From a virus: a stretch of 39,507 bases of DNA. Positions within the stretch are counted from its first letter, which is position 1, and each line of letters begins with the position of its first letter. The notes under the pieces were generated by a model that did not search any database, was not told where the DNA came from, and saw only the letters and a list, made by a program, of their open reading frames with translations. Location of the stretch: positions 1 to 39,507 of the IMG/VR virus record IMGVR_UViG_3300042889_002225, one strand, 5' to 3'. This document shows, piece by piece, positions 7,381 to 34,359 of this stretch. The position numbers were made by a program, and so were the translations under genes.

Positions 7381-8076
7381 TTAAGCGGCTGCCTTTGCCA
7401 ACTTCCAACGGAAACCACCAGCGGTTTCCCACTGATTGTGGCAGACCTTGCTGATGCTGCTGGAGTTGATCTTCAACTCGTCAGCGGCGATAGACTGGCT
7501 TGGCCAGATACGCAGAGGCGTTCCGTCCAGGGCCATTTGGATCACAGGCTTACCGGACTTGCGGCGGCGCTTCTCTGTGGGTGCCGAACGAAGTGCGGGC
7601 ACGTTCGGTGAGGTTGCGGTCTCACCATCAGCCGCATATTGATAACAGAAACCATTGTGAGTGAAGCCCGAATCACCCGAGGACCGGAGAGCCTTGAGGA
7701 AGTCGTAGTATTGCACACCGGCCACTCGACTGGCCGACTGCACACTATGAAGTGTCTGCACTTTCACACCGTCCTTGTACTGTGTGATAGGACGAGGAGC
7801 CTTGGCAGCTTGGGGACGGAAGCCAGGGCCGCCCTGACCGGGAACAGTAGCGGCGGCGTGAGCCATAACCAACGAGCGTCCGGAAGTGTCCGGAGCCGTG
7901 TAGGCGAGAGCTGGTTGGGCAGTCACTGGCGTATTTGCAGCGCCATAGCCCACACGGGCGCCGGCGGGGATGTCAATGGTGATTGTGTCGCCTGGTGACA
8001 TCACAGCCTTGAGTCGGCCATTCAGAGTCAAATGGATCTCGACATCGAGGTTGTTCTCGAAAACGGTAGCACTCAT
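7381..8076 (-). CDS. NUMOD1/IENR1-type DNA-binding protein without nuclease domain
   Basis: ATG 8076 is chosen over the upstream ATG 8109 because AGGGAAGA lies just before it (231 residues). The C-terminal 55 residues (GKPVIQMALDGTPLRIWPSQSIAAD...SISKVCHNQWETAGGFRWK) match the NUMOD1/IENR1 helix-turn-helix repeat found beside HNH and GIY-YIG homing endonucleases. The N-terminal 45 residues form a beta-rich stretch (VEIHLTLNGRLKAVM...ITIDIPAGARV). The middle is Ala/Pro/Ser-rich, with a basic patch EKRRRKSGK. I see no nuclease motif, so a regulator or domesticated homing-endonuclease relative is likely. Its promoter at 8134-8162 is sigma70-like. Confidence 0.6.
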   Translation of the reverse strand: MSATVFENNLDVEIHLTLNGRLKAVMSPGDTITIDIPAGARVGYGAANTPVTAQPALAYTAPDTSGRSLVMAHAAATVPGQGGPGFRPQAAKAPRPITQYKDGVKVQTLHSVQSASRVAGVQYYDFLKALRSSGDSGFTHNGFCYQYAADGETATSPNVPALRSAPTEKRRRKSGKPVIQMALDGTPLRIWPSQSIAADELKINSSSISKVCHNQWETAGGFRWKLAKAAA

Positions 8077-8133
8077 AATAGAGTCTTCCCTATAGGGTGG
8101 ATGGATCATCCAGCGTGGTGCTTGGACAACCGC

Positions 8134-8176: not shown

Positions 8177-8197
8177 ACATGCTAAATCTTAGCGTGT
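8177..8197 (-). terminator. Hairpin after RNase P RNA
   Basis: ACATGCTAA-ATC-TTAGCGTGT, nine pairs with one G-T, lies six bases beyond the RNase P RNA 3' end on the minus strand. It is AT-rich with only a short T run, so it may be a terminator or a processing boundary. Confidence 0.45.
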
Positions 8198-8202
8198 TAA
8201 TG

Positions 8203-8502
8203 GACGAGAAGGTCGATAAGCCGGGTTCTGTGCCGCTTGCGCGGTGGCCACCATTCTTCTTGGACTACGGTTACCCGCAGCCTCTTCGCTCTCAACCCGG
8301 AACCTCCCGACACGATCATCGGTCCCTGCTCGAGATTGCTCCCCCAGCCCTGTCGCCCGTTGCACCCCATTCCCCGGCAAGCCGGATGGGTCTCGTCTCT
8401 GTTGCCGTGACTCGCCTCGCGGCGGGTGGTAAATTAGCCACCTGGGTGTGTCGTGGAGCCCGGACTTTCCTCTCCGTAGAGCGGCAGCCTGACCTTCTCG
8501 TC
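8203..8502 (-). ncRNA. rnpB: RNase P RNA (compact, bacterial type)
   Basis: The minus strand carries the universal RNase P RNA elements. GAGGAAAGTCCGGGCTCC lies near the 5' end (about 8474-8455) and ACAGAACCCGGCTTATCG near the 3' end (about 8231-8214); these pair to form P4. CAACAGAGA, part of the conserved central region, lies between them. The ends close with a perfect 12-bp P1 helix (8491-8502 with 8203-8214). At about 300 nt it is shorter than the 377-nt E. coli RNA, so peripheral helices are reduced. It has its own promoter at 8509-8536 and lies next to tRNA-Thr. It would mature 5' ends of tRNAs with the host or a phage protein subunit. Confidence 0.93.
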
Positions 8503-8508
8503 AGATTC

Positions 8509-8536
8509 ATAATAGCATGAACTGGATTAAGGTCAA
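8509..8536 (-). promoter_or_regulatory. Promoter of RNase P RNA
   Basis: Minus strand TTGACC, 16 bp, TATTAT with TGC before the -10. The predicted start is about base 8502, exactly the P1 5' end. The -35 overlaps the T-tract of the tRNA-Thr terminator. The -10 sits in the loop of TTCAT-GCTATT-ATGAA. Confidence 0.75.
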
Positions 8537-8566
8537 GAAAAAGGGAGAGCGTTTCCGCTCTCCCTT
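8535..8566 (-). terminator. Rho-independent terminator of tRNA-Thr
   Basis: On the minus strand AAGGGAGAGC-GGAAAC-GCTCTCCCTT followed by a T-rich run (TTTTTCTT). It starts directly at the CCA end of tRNA-Thr. Confidence 0.9.
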
Positions 8567-8641
8567 GGTGCCGGTAGCAGGAATCGAACCCACGACATCC
8601 TGATTACAAATCAGGCGCTCTGCCATCTGAGCTATACCGGC
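8566..8641 (-). tRNA. tRNA-Thr (UGU)
   Basis: A 76-nt cloverleaf on the minus strand with encoded CCA. Acceptor GCCGGTA/TACCGGC, D-arm AGCTCAGATGGCAGAGC, anticodon stem CCTGA/TCAGG with loop TTTGTAA giving anticodon TGT, and T-arm GTGGGTTCGATTCCTGC. It reads ACA and probably other ACN codons. Confidence 0.96.
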
Positions 8642-9076: not shown

Positions 9077-9337
9077 ATGTCTAAGATTATCCGCTTCCCC
9101 TTCGCTGCACAGGCCAAGGGAAGTAAACAACTAAAGTTGAGTAGCCCTGATGTGGTTAATAACCAAATCCTATTGGGGCCATGGGACTTTACCTGTCCTC
9201 GATGCGCAACGCCCACGCGCTTTGAGAGTACGAACATGATTTTTCGCACACTTGACTTCTATTGTGCGAGCTGTGGTGCCCTGCACCGTGTGACCAATCC
9301 AGCATTCACACCGAGTAGTACACCACCCAAGAAATAG
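9077..9337 (+). CDS. Small zinc-ribbon protein
   Basis: ATG 9077 is chosen because AGAAGGA lies ten bases upstream and the late promoter at 9037 excludes the earlier ATG at 9047. The 86-residue product has a two-CxxC zinc ribbon (CPRC...CASC, about 22 residues apart) and a Ser/Thr/Pro-rich C-terminus ending in two lysines. Such ribbons often bind nucleic acid or proteins. No family is recognised. Confidence 0.7.
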   Translation: MSKIIRFPFAAQAKGSKQLKLSSPDVVNNQILLGPWDFTCPRCATPTRFESTNMIFRTLDFYCASCGALHRVTNPAFTPSSTPPKK

Positions 9338-12657: not shown

Positions 12658-12834
12658 ATGGGATTGTGCCCTTCGGATTTCGTGGGCCTACCCCTCCAGG
12701 ACATTCAAGTCTATCTAGACGTGAATCATCCAGGACATCGCATCTTCGCCTTTACCGTCATGGGCTGCGCATACAAACAACTCCGAATCGTTGGGCCTAC
12801 CTATAACCTAACACTCGTAGAAAAGAAGAGATAA
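12658..12834 (+). CDS. Small hypothetical protein (58 aa)
   Basis: This short ORF fills the space between two genes exactly: it begins two bases after the previous stop and its TAA overlaps the GroES-like start as TAATG. AAGGAAGA lies upstream of ATG 12658. The product (start MGLCPSDFVG, end LTLVEKKR) is beta-rich with a basic C-terminus. Tight packing supports it as real; function unknown. Confidence 0.65.
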   Translation: MGLCPSDFVGLPLQDIQVYLDVNHPGHRIFAFTVMGCAYKQLRIVGPTYNLTLVEKKR

Positions 12835-13175
12835 TGCCAGCAGGTTACGCACTATTCAAGGGTGACATTAAACCCTTAGCCAATGATGTCTTAGTCATCA
12901 ACATGGAAAAAGGCGAACGAATCACCAGAGGTGGTTTGATCGTTATTGATGACAACGGCGAGAATCGTGGCATCCGCTCTCGCTGGTGCCAAGTCTACAA
13001 GGTTGGTAGTAAGGCCGCAGAGACCGTGGATTATACCGAGGGGCAATGGATCTTCGTAGAGCACGGTCGTTGGACATACGGTTTCAATATCGAAACTCCG
13101 GATGGTCAAGACCTTTACGTTCAGAAGGTAGAGCTTAAGAGTGTGCTCGCCGTCTCCGATGAGTGTCCTCTATAA
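12834..13175 (+). CDS. GroES-like co-chaperonin (T4 gp31-like)
   Basis: The 113-residue protein has GroES features: IKPLANDVLVIN at the N-terminus (GroES IRPLHDRVLV), a mobile-loop region KGERITRGGLIVIDD (GroES E..SAGGIVL), and a C-terminal barrel strand with DLYVQKVELKSVLAV (GroES EYLILKESDILAVV). Phage gp31-type proteins replace GroES on host GroEL to fold the major capsid protein. The start forms TAATG with the upstream small gene. Identity to GroES is low but the pattern is clear. Confidence 0.82.
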   Translation: MPAGYALFKGDIKPLANDVLVINMEKGERITRGGLIVIDDNGENRGIRSRWCQVYKVGSKAAETVDYTEGQWIFVEHGRWTYGFNIETPDGQDLYVQKVELKSVLAVSDECPL

Positions 13176-22073: not shown

Positions 22074-22150
<77 letters not shown>

Positions 22151-23415: not shown

Positions 23416-23491
23416 TGGCGACTCCACCCCGACTCGAACGGGGAAATGAACCTTAGGAGGGTTCCGGTTTATCCGGTTAGCCTATGGAGTC
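23416..23491 (-). tRNA. tRNA-Arg (CCU)
   Basis: A 76-nt cloverleaf on the minus strand, CCA encoded. Acceptor GACTCCA/TGGAGTC, anticodon stem GAACC/GGTTC with loop CTCCTAA giving CCT, T-arm CCCCGTTCGAGTCGGGG. It reads AGG, a codon that is rare in many proteobacteria. The D-stem has a mismatch. Confidence 0.92.
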
Positions 23492-23543: not shown

Positions 23544-23629
23544 TGGTGCGGATGAGAGGATTCGAACCTCCAAGTCCTTTCGGACGCCAGAACCTAAATC
23601 TGGTGCGTAGACCGTTCCGCCACATCCGC
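23544..23629 (-). tRNA. tRNA-Leu (UAG)
   Basis: An 86-nt class II tRNA on the minus strand with encoded CCA and a long variable arm (GTCCGAAAGGAC). Anticodon loop TTTAGGT between CCAGA and TCTGG gives TAG. It begins about ten bases after a late promoter. Confidence 0.95.
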
Positions 23630-30623: not shown

Positions 30624-31493
30624 ATGAGCCATTATACCACTCTCGGAGTGGCTAGCACGGCGACCGCGGCTGAGATCAAGTCAGCCTACCGTGCATTAGC
30701 CAAGAAGCATCACCCGGACCTCAATCCGGGTAATGCTGCATCTGAGGCTCTATTCAAAGAAATCACCAACGCCTTTGATGTTCTCGGTGACGCTGAAAAG
30801 CGTTCCAAGTATGACGGTGAACAAACTGGCTTCCGTTATACGGGTGAACAACAGCAATGGGGCAGTTCAGCCCATCATGGTTTTGGTCATAGTCCCGCCT
30901 ATGACGACATTCTAGCTGATATCATGCGGCAACGTGCTCGCCGTGGGGCACATGGATTCTCAGAATATGAGGGTGTGAAGAACCGAGACATCCAACTCAC
31001 ATATACGATTACGCTGGAAGAGGCCTTCACGGGTAAGGAAACCAACCTCAAGTATAAGGTGGGTGCTGAAAGCCGTGACATTATTCTCAAGGTACCACAG
31101 GGTATTCAATCGGGGATGAAGATTCGCCATCCGGGACTGGGTGATCACGCGGCCAAAGCCGTTCCCGCTGGTGATCTCTTTGTTACCATCGACGTCATGC
31201 CACACGCTCGCTTTGTTCGTACTGGTAACGACATCATGGTCACGGCTCAGATTGATTATCTCCAGGCAATGACAGGCGGCAGCGTTGACGTTCCCACCAT
31301 CGACGGCCACACTCTTCGTCTCAAGGTACCCGCCGGGACTGCACCAGGCAAAGTGGTTCGAGTAGTGGGACGTGGTATGAACACGAGCAGAGGCCGCGGC
31401 GACATGTTCGTTGAATTTGGCGTCGTGGCTCCTGTACTCAGCAATGAGGAACGTGCAAAGATTCAGGAGATAGTCAGTCAACGAAAAGGTTGA
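30624..31493 (+). CDS. DnaJ/CbpA-type co-chaperone
   Basis: A 289-residue protein. The J-domain occupies 1-66 with HPD at 30-32; no zinc-finger CxxC repeats follow, so it is a CbpA-type (class II) J-protein. Two C-terminal beta domains follow (about 115-289; RDIILKVPQGIQSGMKIRHPG, TLRLKVPAGTAPGKVVRVVGRG). It would recruit host DnaK. No ribosome-binding site precedes the ATG, which lies seven bases after the -10, so the mRNA is predicted to be leaderless. Confidence 0.93.
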   Translation: MSHYTTLGVASTATAAEIKSAYRALAKKHHPDLNPGNAASEALFKEITNAFDVLGDAEKRSKYDGEQTGFRYTGEQQQWGSSAHHGFGHSPAYDDILADIMRQRARRGAHGFSEYEGVKNRDIQLTYTITLEEAFTGKETNLKYKVGAESRDIILKVPQGIQSGMKIRHPGLGDHAAKAVPAGDLFVTIDVMPHARFVRTGNDIMVTAQIDYLQAMTGGSVDVPTIDGHTLRLKVPAGTAPGKVVRVVGRGMNTSRGRGDMFVEFGVVAPVLSNEERAKIQEIVSQRKG

Positions 31494-31517
31494 ATTCTCG
31501 CCAACCCTTGCTATCTA
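31490..31517 (+). promoter_or_regulatory. Promoter of the def-clpA operon
   Basis: TTGAAT, 16 bp, TATCTA with TGC before the -10. The -35 overlaps the end of the dnaJ-like gene. Leader about 30 bases. Confidence 0.5.
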
Positions 31518-31555
31518 GTGAGAGCAGGCAACGATCGAACCACTGATGTCCTGCA

Positions 31556-32053
31556 ATGAACCTTATCATCCCTGAGAATTCTAAAGAGCTCCGAGAGCTC
31601 ACTCCCGCATGGGACTTCGCGGCGCCGCCCGAGGAAGCACAACCACTGGTGGCTATCATGTATGCCACAATGCGGATGGAGAATGGTGTGGGTCTGGCCG
31701 CGCCTCAGATCGGAAAGAATCACCGTATCTTCATTATGGGGGATGACACGTCATTCAAGGCGTGCTTTAATCCTGAAATCCTGAAATTCAAGGGCGACGT
31801 CGTCCTTAACGAAGAGGGGTGCCTGAGCTTTCCCGGTTTGCTCCTTAAGGTCAAACGAAGTTCAGAGATCGACGTACGGTATTGGAATCAAGACGGTGAG
31901 CTCCTAGAAGAGTCGCTCTCTGGGTTACAGTCTATATGTTTCCAACATGAACTCGATCACCTCGATGGAATTTGCTTTGACCAGCGGGTTGGTACAGTGA
32001 GTTTGGCTATGGCTAAGAATCGTCGCGCTAAGGCGTTGAAAGGAAAGCGTTAA
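31556..32053 (+). CDS. def: Peptide deformylase
   Basis: A 165-residue protein with all three catalytic motifs: GVGLAAPQIG (44-53), EGCLSFPG (87-94, metal Cys89) and QHELDHLDG (130-138, metal His131/His135 and catalytic Glu132). It removes formyl groups from nascent N-termini. The C-terminus is basic (KNRRAKALKGKR) and could contact the ribosome. Coupled to clpA by TAATG. Confidence 0.96.
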   Translation: MNLIIPENSKELRELTPAWDFAAPPEEAQPLVAIMYATMRMENGVGLAAPQIGKNHRIFIMGDDTSFKACFNPEILKFKGDVVLNEEGCLSFPGLLLKVKRSSEIDVRYWNQDGELLEESLSGLQSICFQHELDHLDGICFDQRVGTVSLAMAKNRRAKALKGKR

Positions 32054-34359
32054 TGTCGAGTACCCCACCTGTCAATGTGGACAAGGCGCAAGAGATCATC
32101 GAACGTGCCGGTGATATTGCAACCATGAACATGCACGAGTACGTGACCCTAGAGCACCTCCTGGCCAGCCTGCTTGGAGAGAGTGCGGTCAAAGAGGTGC
32201 TCATCGATCTCGACGTGGATGTGGACGAACTCGAGAAAGACCTCGTGAGTTTCTATGGTGCGGGTATCTTGCCCAAGGCCCAGGAAGGCTTTGCGGCAAG
32301 GCGCACTCCGGCTCTTATGAACGCCATTAAGCGAGCTACTGCTCAGGTCATGCTGAGTGGCCGCAAGAAGATTCAACCCACTGACCTCCTGGTGAGTCTG
32401 GTTGAACAGGCTGACGAAGACAGTCACGCTTTCTTCTTCCTGGCCAAATACGGCGTTGACGCTGACACACTAAAGTTCGTTGTCAGCCATCCTGTTCATG
32501 AAGCAGATGACGGCGAGGAAGAAGAGGATGAAACCGCGGGATTGAATAAGAACCAGCGCCTTCTTGCCAGGTACTGCATCAACCTCAATGATCAAGCGGG
32601 CAAAGGTCTCATTGATCCACTGATTGGTCGCGAGGCTGAAGTGGCCTCACTGATTCTCACCACCGCTCGTCGCACCAAGAATAACAGCGTTCTTATCGGT
32701 GAACCCGGTGTGGGTAAGACCGCCGTGGTCGAAGGCCTGGCCAAGATGATAGTCGAGGGTGACGTCCCCGATAGCATCAAGACCGCAGTAGTCTACAGCC
32801 TAGACATCAGCGCTCTAATGGCGGGTGCCAAGTTCAGGGGCGACATGGAAGAGCGCCTCAAACAGGTTCTCAAGGCCCTGGAAGAGTTGGAGCAACCCAT
32901 TCTCTTCATCGACGAAATCCATATGATTATGGGTGCTGGTGCTTCTTCGGGTGGAGGAGGCATGGACGTGGCCAACCTTCTCAAGCCTGCGTTGGCCAAG
33001 GGTCAACTGCGCTGTATTGGTAGTACGACCTACGAGGAGTTCAGGAAGTACTTTGAGAAGGACCGCGCCTTGCTGCGCCGCTTCCAACGTCTGGATATCA
33101 ATGAACCCAGCGTTGAGGATGCCAAGCGTATCGTTCATGGTCTTTCCACTGTGTATGGTGACTACCACGGCGTCACATATACCGATGAAGCCCTGGATGC
33201 AGCGGTTGAACTCACTGCTCGATATGTCAATGACAAACTTCTTCCAGACAAGGCCATCGACGTCATCGACGCCGCGGGTGCAAGGCAGAAGATCCGACCC
33301 GAGGAAGACAAGATCAAGATCATCGATCTATCGATGATCGAGGCTGAAGTCTCTAGGATTGCTCGCATCCCTGCCCGTACGGTCAAGGAAGACGAGGGCG
33401 ACAAGTTGGCTCACCTCGAGATTGATCTGAACGCTTCCGTGTTCGGTCAGGATGTCGCGGTACAGACCGTGACTGACGCGGTGATCATGGCGCGGTCCGG
33501 TCTGCGTTCTCCCAACAAGCCACAGAGTTCGTTCCTCTTCACCGGACCCACTGGTGTGGGTAAGACTGAATTGGCCAAGCAACTCAGCAGGACTTTGTCC
33601 TTGCCGTTGATCCGCTACAACATGAGCGAGTACATGGAGAAACACTCCGTCAGCAAGCTCATCGGTAGCCCTCCGGGCTACGTGGGCCACGGTGATGGTG
33701 CAGCAGGTTCGGGACTGTTGATCAACGACATCGAGAAGACACCCCACGCCATCCTGTTGCTCGACGAAATCGAGAAGGCGCACGAGGATGTGTTCAAACT
33801 CTTCCTGCAAGTCATGGATGATGGCATGCTCACGAGTTCGTCAGGTAAGACCGTGAACTTCCAGAACGTGTTGATCATCATGACCAGCAATGCTGGAGCG
33901 AGTGAACTGCAGAAGAATAACATTGGCTTTGCTCGTGAACTCGATGATCGGCAGGGGGCCGATGACGCAGAGATTAACAAGACCTTCTCTCCTGAATTCA
34001 GGAATCGCCTGGATGCCATTGTGAAGTTCTTGCCTCTTACGAAGAACAATATGATCCATATCGTGATCAAGTTCATCGAAGAGCTCAACGTCCTGGCTGC
34101 AGATAAGAACGTTCATCTGGATATGAGTCCCGAGGCACTGGAATGGTTGGCCGAGAAGGGTTATGATCCTAAGATGGGAGCTCGTCCTCTGAGTCGAGTC
34201 ATTGATGACCTGATCAAGAAGCCACTCAGCAGGGCATTGATCTTTGGTGATCTCAAGCGTGGTGGGACTGCGCTGGGTACGGTGGTTGATGGGGAGTTCA
34301 CTCTCCAGACCAATGCCAAGGCCGAGGAAAAAGTTGAAGAACTCGTCCAAGAAACCTAA
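32053..34359 (+). CDS. ClpA-like AAA+ unfoldase
   Basis: A 768-residue two-AAA protein, close to E. coli ClpA (758). An N-domain covers 1-150, then an acidic linker ([11 protein letters not shown]). D1 has Walker A GEPGVGKT (216-223) and Walker B ILFIDEIH (283-290). D2 has Walker A GPTGVGKT (498-505), the pore loop GYVG (542-545) and Walker B LLLDEIEK (568-575). There is no ClpB middle domain. IGF at 624-626 matches the [LIV]-G-[FL] ClpP-docking tripeptide, so it may dock onto host ClpP and feed it substrates. Translationally coupled to def. Confidence 0.93.

Follow-up and report, generated by a model that had tools for sequence, protein, structure and literature searches.

Few ribozymes are near-universal; RNase P RNA is one of them and counts as a hallmark of cells. 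Its presence is used as a check of genome completeness (PMC8172020), and the loss of its P13 and P14 helices is already known in some cellular RNAs (PMC8172020, PMC4919922). Lui et al. 2021 described megaphages that carry tRNAs and a tmRNA (PMC8172020); the open-access literature searched (subscription papers and most preprints were outside the scope) gave no account of an RNase P RNA encoded by a phage, and the passages retrieved from RNase P and jumbo-phage reviews do not mention one. A BLAST search of INPHARED turned up no annotated, genuine phage that has an RNase P RNA; the records that matched were bacterial or wrongly labelled, or were faecal scaffolds without annotation. For example, the RNase P RNA at ~115 kb in MW495066.1 (“Microcystis phage MaAM05”, L059) lies beside glyS, mtgA, fabI and fliM in a stretch that looks bacterial, and a match in a Salmonella contig in a phage collection is on bacterial DNA.

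The RNase P RNA gene described here lies in the window, the 39,507-bp stretch of viral DNA that was analysed. Like E. coli M1 RNA (rnpB, RF00010), its RNA matches the whole family model and has the P6 pseudoknot, the L15 GGU and identical P4 strands, and it shares helices P1, P2, P5–P9, P10/11, P12, P15, P16 and P18 with bacterial class A RNAs. It differs from the latter in being phage-encoded and only 300 nt long, in having no P13 or P14, a P3 of 3 bp and a barely formed P17, in its rebuilt P6 and P7, and in the joining segment after ACA, which reads GAGACGAG. The same S-domain loss is reported for RNase P RNAs without P13/P14 from archaea (type A) and candidate phyla (CPR) (PMC4919922, PMC8172020), but these RNAs are cellular, whereas the window RNA best matches bacterial class A and keeps P18 and the L15 GGU. 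What is new is thus the apparently unreported setting of a known RNA family, here with a reduced architecture; P13/P14 loss itself is not new.

An RNase P RNA gene on jumbo-phage DNA

The bacterial class A model RF00010 (Infernal, Rfam 15) matches the minus strand of the window from 8500 to 8201 with 155.8 bits (E 1.7e-48; gathering cut-off 100 bits). The match spans the full model (positions 1–367), RF00010 is the top scorer within its clan, and this is the sole copy in the virus record, which is the window itself (E 4.1e-52 when only this genome is searched). Positions 8502 and 8203 are the exact outer ends of a perfect 12-bp P1, GACGAGAAGGUC/GACCUUCUCGUC. Cellular class A RNAs score 251–341 bits, and those of 15 bacterial references are 336–434 nt long. 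The minus strand at 8502–8203 thus encodes an RNase P RNA and lies on phage DNA; that the RNA is catalytic is inferred.

A preliminary description, made without database searches, had proposed a phage-encoded RNase P RNA at 8203–8502 that was clearly shorter than host-type RNAs and had both halves of P4, a central ACAGAGA block and a perfect 12-bp P1, and it had named beforehand a covariance-model score below threshold or missing catalytic nucleotides in P4 as what would refute it. Neither refutation occurred, as the score exceeds the cut-off and both P4 strands are present, and the claim holds on the score, P4 and the phage context (below). The ends hold as well (exact P1 ends, model boundaries 8500–8201), as do the P1, the P4 halves, which are identical to those of E. 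coli, the ACAGAGA block and the shortness, whose source is the loss of P13/P14 together with a smaller P3, P12 and P17. Its further suggestion of altered protein dependence or substrate range has neither held nor failed and stays conjecture. Coordinates of the features are collected in Table 1.

Table 1. Positions of RNA, tRNA, expression and neighbouring features in the window
Feature	Position	Strand	Basis
RNase P RNA gene, 300 nt, class A type without P13/P14	8203..8502	(-)	RF00010 match and pairing
P1 5' strand	8491..8502	(-)	sequence; perfect 12 bp with 8214-8203
P1 3' strand	8203..8214	(-)	sequence
P4 5' strand, AAGUCCGGG, includes bulged U of catalytic core	8459..8467	(-)	sequence; same as E. 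coli reference
P4 3' strand, CCCGGCUU (inside ACAGAACCCGGCUUA)	8218..8225	(-)	sequence
P6 pseudoknot 5' strand, CGACAC (E. coli GGGC)	8448..8453	(-)	sequence and comparison of phage RNAs
P6 pseudoknot 3' strand, GUGUCG (E. coli GCCC), L16/17 region	8308..8313	(-)	sequence and comparison
P7 5' strand, CCCAG; partner CUGGG at 8347-8343 (E. coli GGGUG/CACCC)	8442..8446	(-)	sequence; P7 within model
L15 GGU motif	8295..8297	(-)	sequence, RF00010 alignment
Predicted sigma70-like promoter, TTGACC-16-TATTAT, extended -10 (TG)	8509..8536	(-)	10/12 consensus matches
Predicted intrinsic terminator of tRNA-Thr, 11-bp stem and T tail	8541..8566	(-)	terminator scan
tRNA-Thr(UGU), CCA encoded, candidate substrate	8566..8641	(-)	tRNA prediction and sequence
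tRNA-Pro(UGG), CCA encoded, candidate substrate	22074..22150	(-)	tRNA prediction and sequence
tRNA-Arg(CCU), ending GCCA, candidate substrate	23416..23491	(-)	tRNA prediction and sequence
tRNA-Leu(UAG), CCA encoded, candidate substrate	23544..23629	(-)	tRNA prediction and sequence
HNH-endonuclease-like gene, directly downstream of RNA	7381..8109	(-)	phrog_20162, E 2.2e-5, C-terminal 61 aa only

The contig is a genuine fragment of a T4-like jumbo phage, as shown by its phage gene families, its synteny and an overlapping contig. It encodes a MazG-like protein, a clamp loader, dCMP deaminase, PhoH, two virion structural proteins, DnaJ, peptide deformylase, a ClpA-like ATPase and an NAD ligase. 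Between 9047 and 39052 the gene order largely follows that of viral contigs of 277–465 kb that carry T4-type Gp23 capsid genes; this synteny starts ~550 bp from the RNase P RNA, the opposite flank of which holds small phage-like ORFs, and the right end of the window overlaps, at 96.6% identity, a contig from a different sample. Most of the colinear relatives have tRNA-Pro, -Arg and -Leu in common with the window, and RF00010 found no match in them, nor is there a tRNA in their corresponding upstream stretches. Two genes that are direct neighbours in the window (at 9337/9390) are separated by ~8–13 kb in the relatives, so the island of RNase P RNA, tRNA-Thr and HNH-like gene occupies a variable region. 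The HNH-like gene, for which no Pfam match was found, may hint that the island is mobile. As a separate observation, DnaJ, peptide deformylase and the ClpA-like ATPase lie in a row (30624–34359) and, with a weak Cpn10-like match at 12834–13175 that is below the Pfam cut-off, form a protein-folding and turnover cluster common to the relatives.

Fold, covariation and the reduced S-domain

The Rfam alignment places both partners of 75 model pairs in the window, and 72 of these are canonical, 29 of them differing from the family consensus on both sides. When partners were shuffled (5000 trials) the mean number of canonical pairs was 33 and the maximum 48, so the match is not due to chance; the alignment is fitted to the structure and so favours pairing, though hardly by that much. 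Plain minimum free energy folding is modestly low (z -1.5), which carries little weight either way for an RNA that relies on tertiary contacts.

The two P4 strands (AAAGUCCGGG and ACAGAACCCGGCUUA) match E. coli letter for letter, so that P4 is intact with its bulged U and the CRI/CRV strands are conserved. P6 and P16 are both present with 6 bp, and P17 is doubtful. The P6 and P4 pairings lie outside the helices of the RF00010 model, yet they agree with the fold. Elsewhere the RNA is reduced: 43 model positions are missing with P13/P14 (present in E. coli and all 15 references, though class A membership does not strictly call for them), P3 is cut to 3 bp with a UACG loop, and P12 is shrunken. 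Among 100 columns that are invariant in the 15 references, the window RNA keeps 72, has gaps at 19 (mostly P13/P14) and changes 9.

P6 is perfect, with 6–7 bp, in six phage RNAs of this reduced type, and its sequence is different in each: CGACAC/GUGUCG in the window, GAACAG/CUGUUC in G002, GAGCAG/CUGCUC in G008, CAAGCA/UGCUUG in G029, UAGAGA/UCUCUA in G003 and CUGGUGC/GCACCAG in G037. A seventh, G034, has five Watson-Crick pairs and one G-U. Single P6 duplexes arise in 0.5–4% of shuffles, and the weight therefore rests on the whole set and not on any one. That so divergent a helix is kept by covariation fits selection on tertiary structure rather than decay, an inference made from sequence alone.

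Expression, substrates and function

A predicted promoter ends 6 nt before P1, and the tRNA-Thr 3' end lies 63 nt upstream of the RNase P RNA. About 0.7 such promoter sites are expected by chance in the 851-base region. The RNA probably has its own promoter, its transcription being inferred. The terminator between tRNA-Thr and the RNA implies two separate transcription units. The preliminary description's claims of an own promoter with a predicted start at the P1 5' end and of a neighbouring tRNA-Thr thus fit the sequence, but the two genes are not predicted to be co-transcribed. No strong terminator was found past P1; there is only a weak hairpin at 8196–8178 that was spotted by eye and missed by the scan. 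We also note that tRNA-Thr and its terminator (8513–8638) are ~70% identical to the tRNA-Pro stretch of two relatives (L017 and L020), so tRNA-Thr could possibly have come from a duplication.

All four tRNAs of the window have encoded RCCA 3' ends; in bacterial RNase P the L15 GGU pairs with the tRNA 3' RCCA. RnpA (PF00825) had no match in 24 contigs (the window, its relatives and other carriers), in a search whose control was positive in 10 of 14 genomes. The lack of an RnpA match in these contigs suggests that the RNA uses host RnpA or works alone; the window is a phage fragment, and an RnpA gene elsewhere in that phage is not excluded. Borrowing of host RnpA is the simplest reading, because RNase P subunits of different bacterial species can complement each other (PMC4919922).

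We consider it likely (probability roughly 0.78) that the gene provides the phage with a functional RNase P ribozyme RNA. What the analysis shows is the sequence with its fold and covariation, the phage context and the lack of an RnpA match; transcription, RnpA recruitment, catalysis and benefit are inferences from these. In this reading, the T4-like jumbo phage would transcribe a separate 300-nt RNA from its own sigma70-type promoter, and the RNA would fold into an intact C-domain (P1, P2, P4, P5, P6, P15, P16, P18) and a reduced S-domain (P7, P8, P9, P10/11 and P12, with P13/P14 missing). It would most likely pair with host RnpA, given that no RnpA gene was found in the phage, or it may act alone; it would then cut the 5' leaders of the phage tRNAs, with their encoded RCCA ends docked on the L15 GGU. 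The probable benefit would be that tRNA maturation continues when transcription in the host has been shut down and its DNA broken down. Against this reading, the score is far under those of cellular class A RNAs, no expression or activity data stand behind it, recognition of the reduced S-domain by host RnpA is unproven, and a strong terminator past P1 is lacking. In addition, relatives that have the same tRNA-Pro, -Arg and -Leu lack the RNA, so those tRNAs do not depend on it.

The main rival, which we regard as unlikely, is that the RNA is a decoy or regulator, damping host RNase P by binding host RnpA, pre-tRNAs or both. The reduced S-domain, the independent promoter, the absence of an encoded RnpA and the relatives with the same tRNAs but no RNA all speak for it; however, the intact catalytic P4 strands and the L15 GGU would be unneeded by a pure decoy, and the tRNA-array placement in other phages (below) points to processing. 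It is much less plausible still that the gene is a recently captured, functionless host passenger. An rnpB gene could come along with DNA beside a tRNA, and the region is variable with an HNH-like gene near, but a search for exact RNA patterns (26-mer) in the genomes of 84,980 species gave no match (no host was assigned), which argues against a recent copy from a sampled host, and the 29 double-changed pairs and rebuilt P6 indicate long, selected divergence. It is very improbable that the locus stems from faulty assembly or from bacterial DNA that ended up in a viral contig, for although some RNase P RNA records in phage collections are bacterial (MaAM05, the Salmonella contig), the syntenic stretch begins ~550 bp from the RNA, the other side has phage-like small ORFs, and BLAST with the window RNA found nothing similar in plasmid or phage records.

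Other viral RNase P RNAs

IMG/VR was screened by exact pattern scans and then with RF00010, whose cut-off was exceeded in 11 contigs of 100 kb or more (G001, G002, G003, G004, G006, G008, G009, G011, G012, G028 and G039) and in some shorter contigs. These 11 are not all independent, as G001 and G011 have the same RNA and so do G004 and G008. One contig whose score of 64 bits falls under the cut-off (G032) was left out of the count, and the pattern matches L108–L110 are not RNase P RNA. The preliminary statement that RNase P RNA is nearly always a single-copy host gene, with phage copies rarely annotated, is thereby refined: the window RNA is one among many viral copies. For the other carriers, the main grounds for viral status are the IMG/VR classing and the tRNA arrays. 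Of the carriers, G028 alone gave a Gp23 match, and it has a terminase as well; terminase and sheath searches mostly gave no match and were of low information for several contigs, and in G001/G011 neither a tRNA within 1.5 kb of the RNA nor a hallmark was found.

The viral RNAs compared with that of the window (G002, G003, G004/G008, G006, G009, G012, G028/G036/G039, G029, G034 and G037) share its viral location. Most of them lie inside a tRNA array, sometimes with no spacer, whereas the window RNA has its own promoter and one tRNA nearby. We observed that in long arrays the RNA can be 0–3 nt from tRNAs (L030, L025, L074, L084), with zero bases between tRNA-Thr and the RNA in L030 and tRNAs ~2 nt away on both sides in L084; such spacing leaves it possible that the ribozyme's own ends are made by tRNA processing.

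Seven viral RNAs, that of the window included, have the reduced S-domain together with a CAGAGACGA block, and a core-alignment tree unites them (consensus support 98; split weight 86 in a second analysis). A tree of the C-domain only fails to recover this group, with the window RNA drifting toward Alphaproteobacteria without support, and a single origin of the seven was therefore dropped; common ancestry of the reduced group is not firmly supported. In the trees G006, G012 and G013 group with Actinomycetota, and G028, G036 and G039 stand apart from all references, and these separate placements make several captures likely. A bolder reading, to which taken as a whole we give only slightly better odds than its denial, is that RNase P RNA is a recurrent viral gene, which jumbo phages took from different bacteria on several occasions and placed within or close to tRNA arrays, leaving the protein subunit behind, and that the short-S-domain CAGAGACGA type may be a ribozyme lineage specific to phages and adapted to foreign RnpA or to working without protein.

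A phage-borne, streamlined copy means that what viruses can carry extends beyond tRNAs to the catalytic core of their maturation, and it sharpens, for experiment, the question why tRNAs occur in phages. With such naturally reduced ribozymes one can test which parts of the S-domain and which protein contacts are required. Caution is also in order, as an RNase P RNA match is no proof that a contig is cellular.

Two minor observations concern the neighbourhoods of other carriers. A TROVE (Ro60-like, PF05731) protein is encoded in two of them, at L065:392-1867 (E 1.4e-22) and L076:6732-8390 (6e-4, below the cut-off), and these genes raise the possibility of a broader phage RNA-handling module. An intein with an HNH-like stretch lies at L009:8725-10440, near the tRNA/RNase P array of G008.
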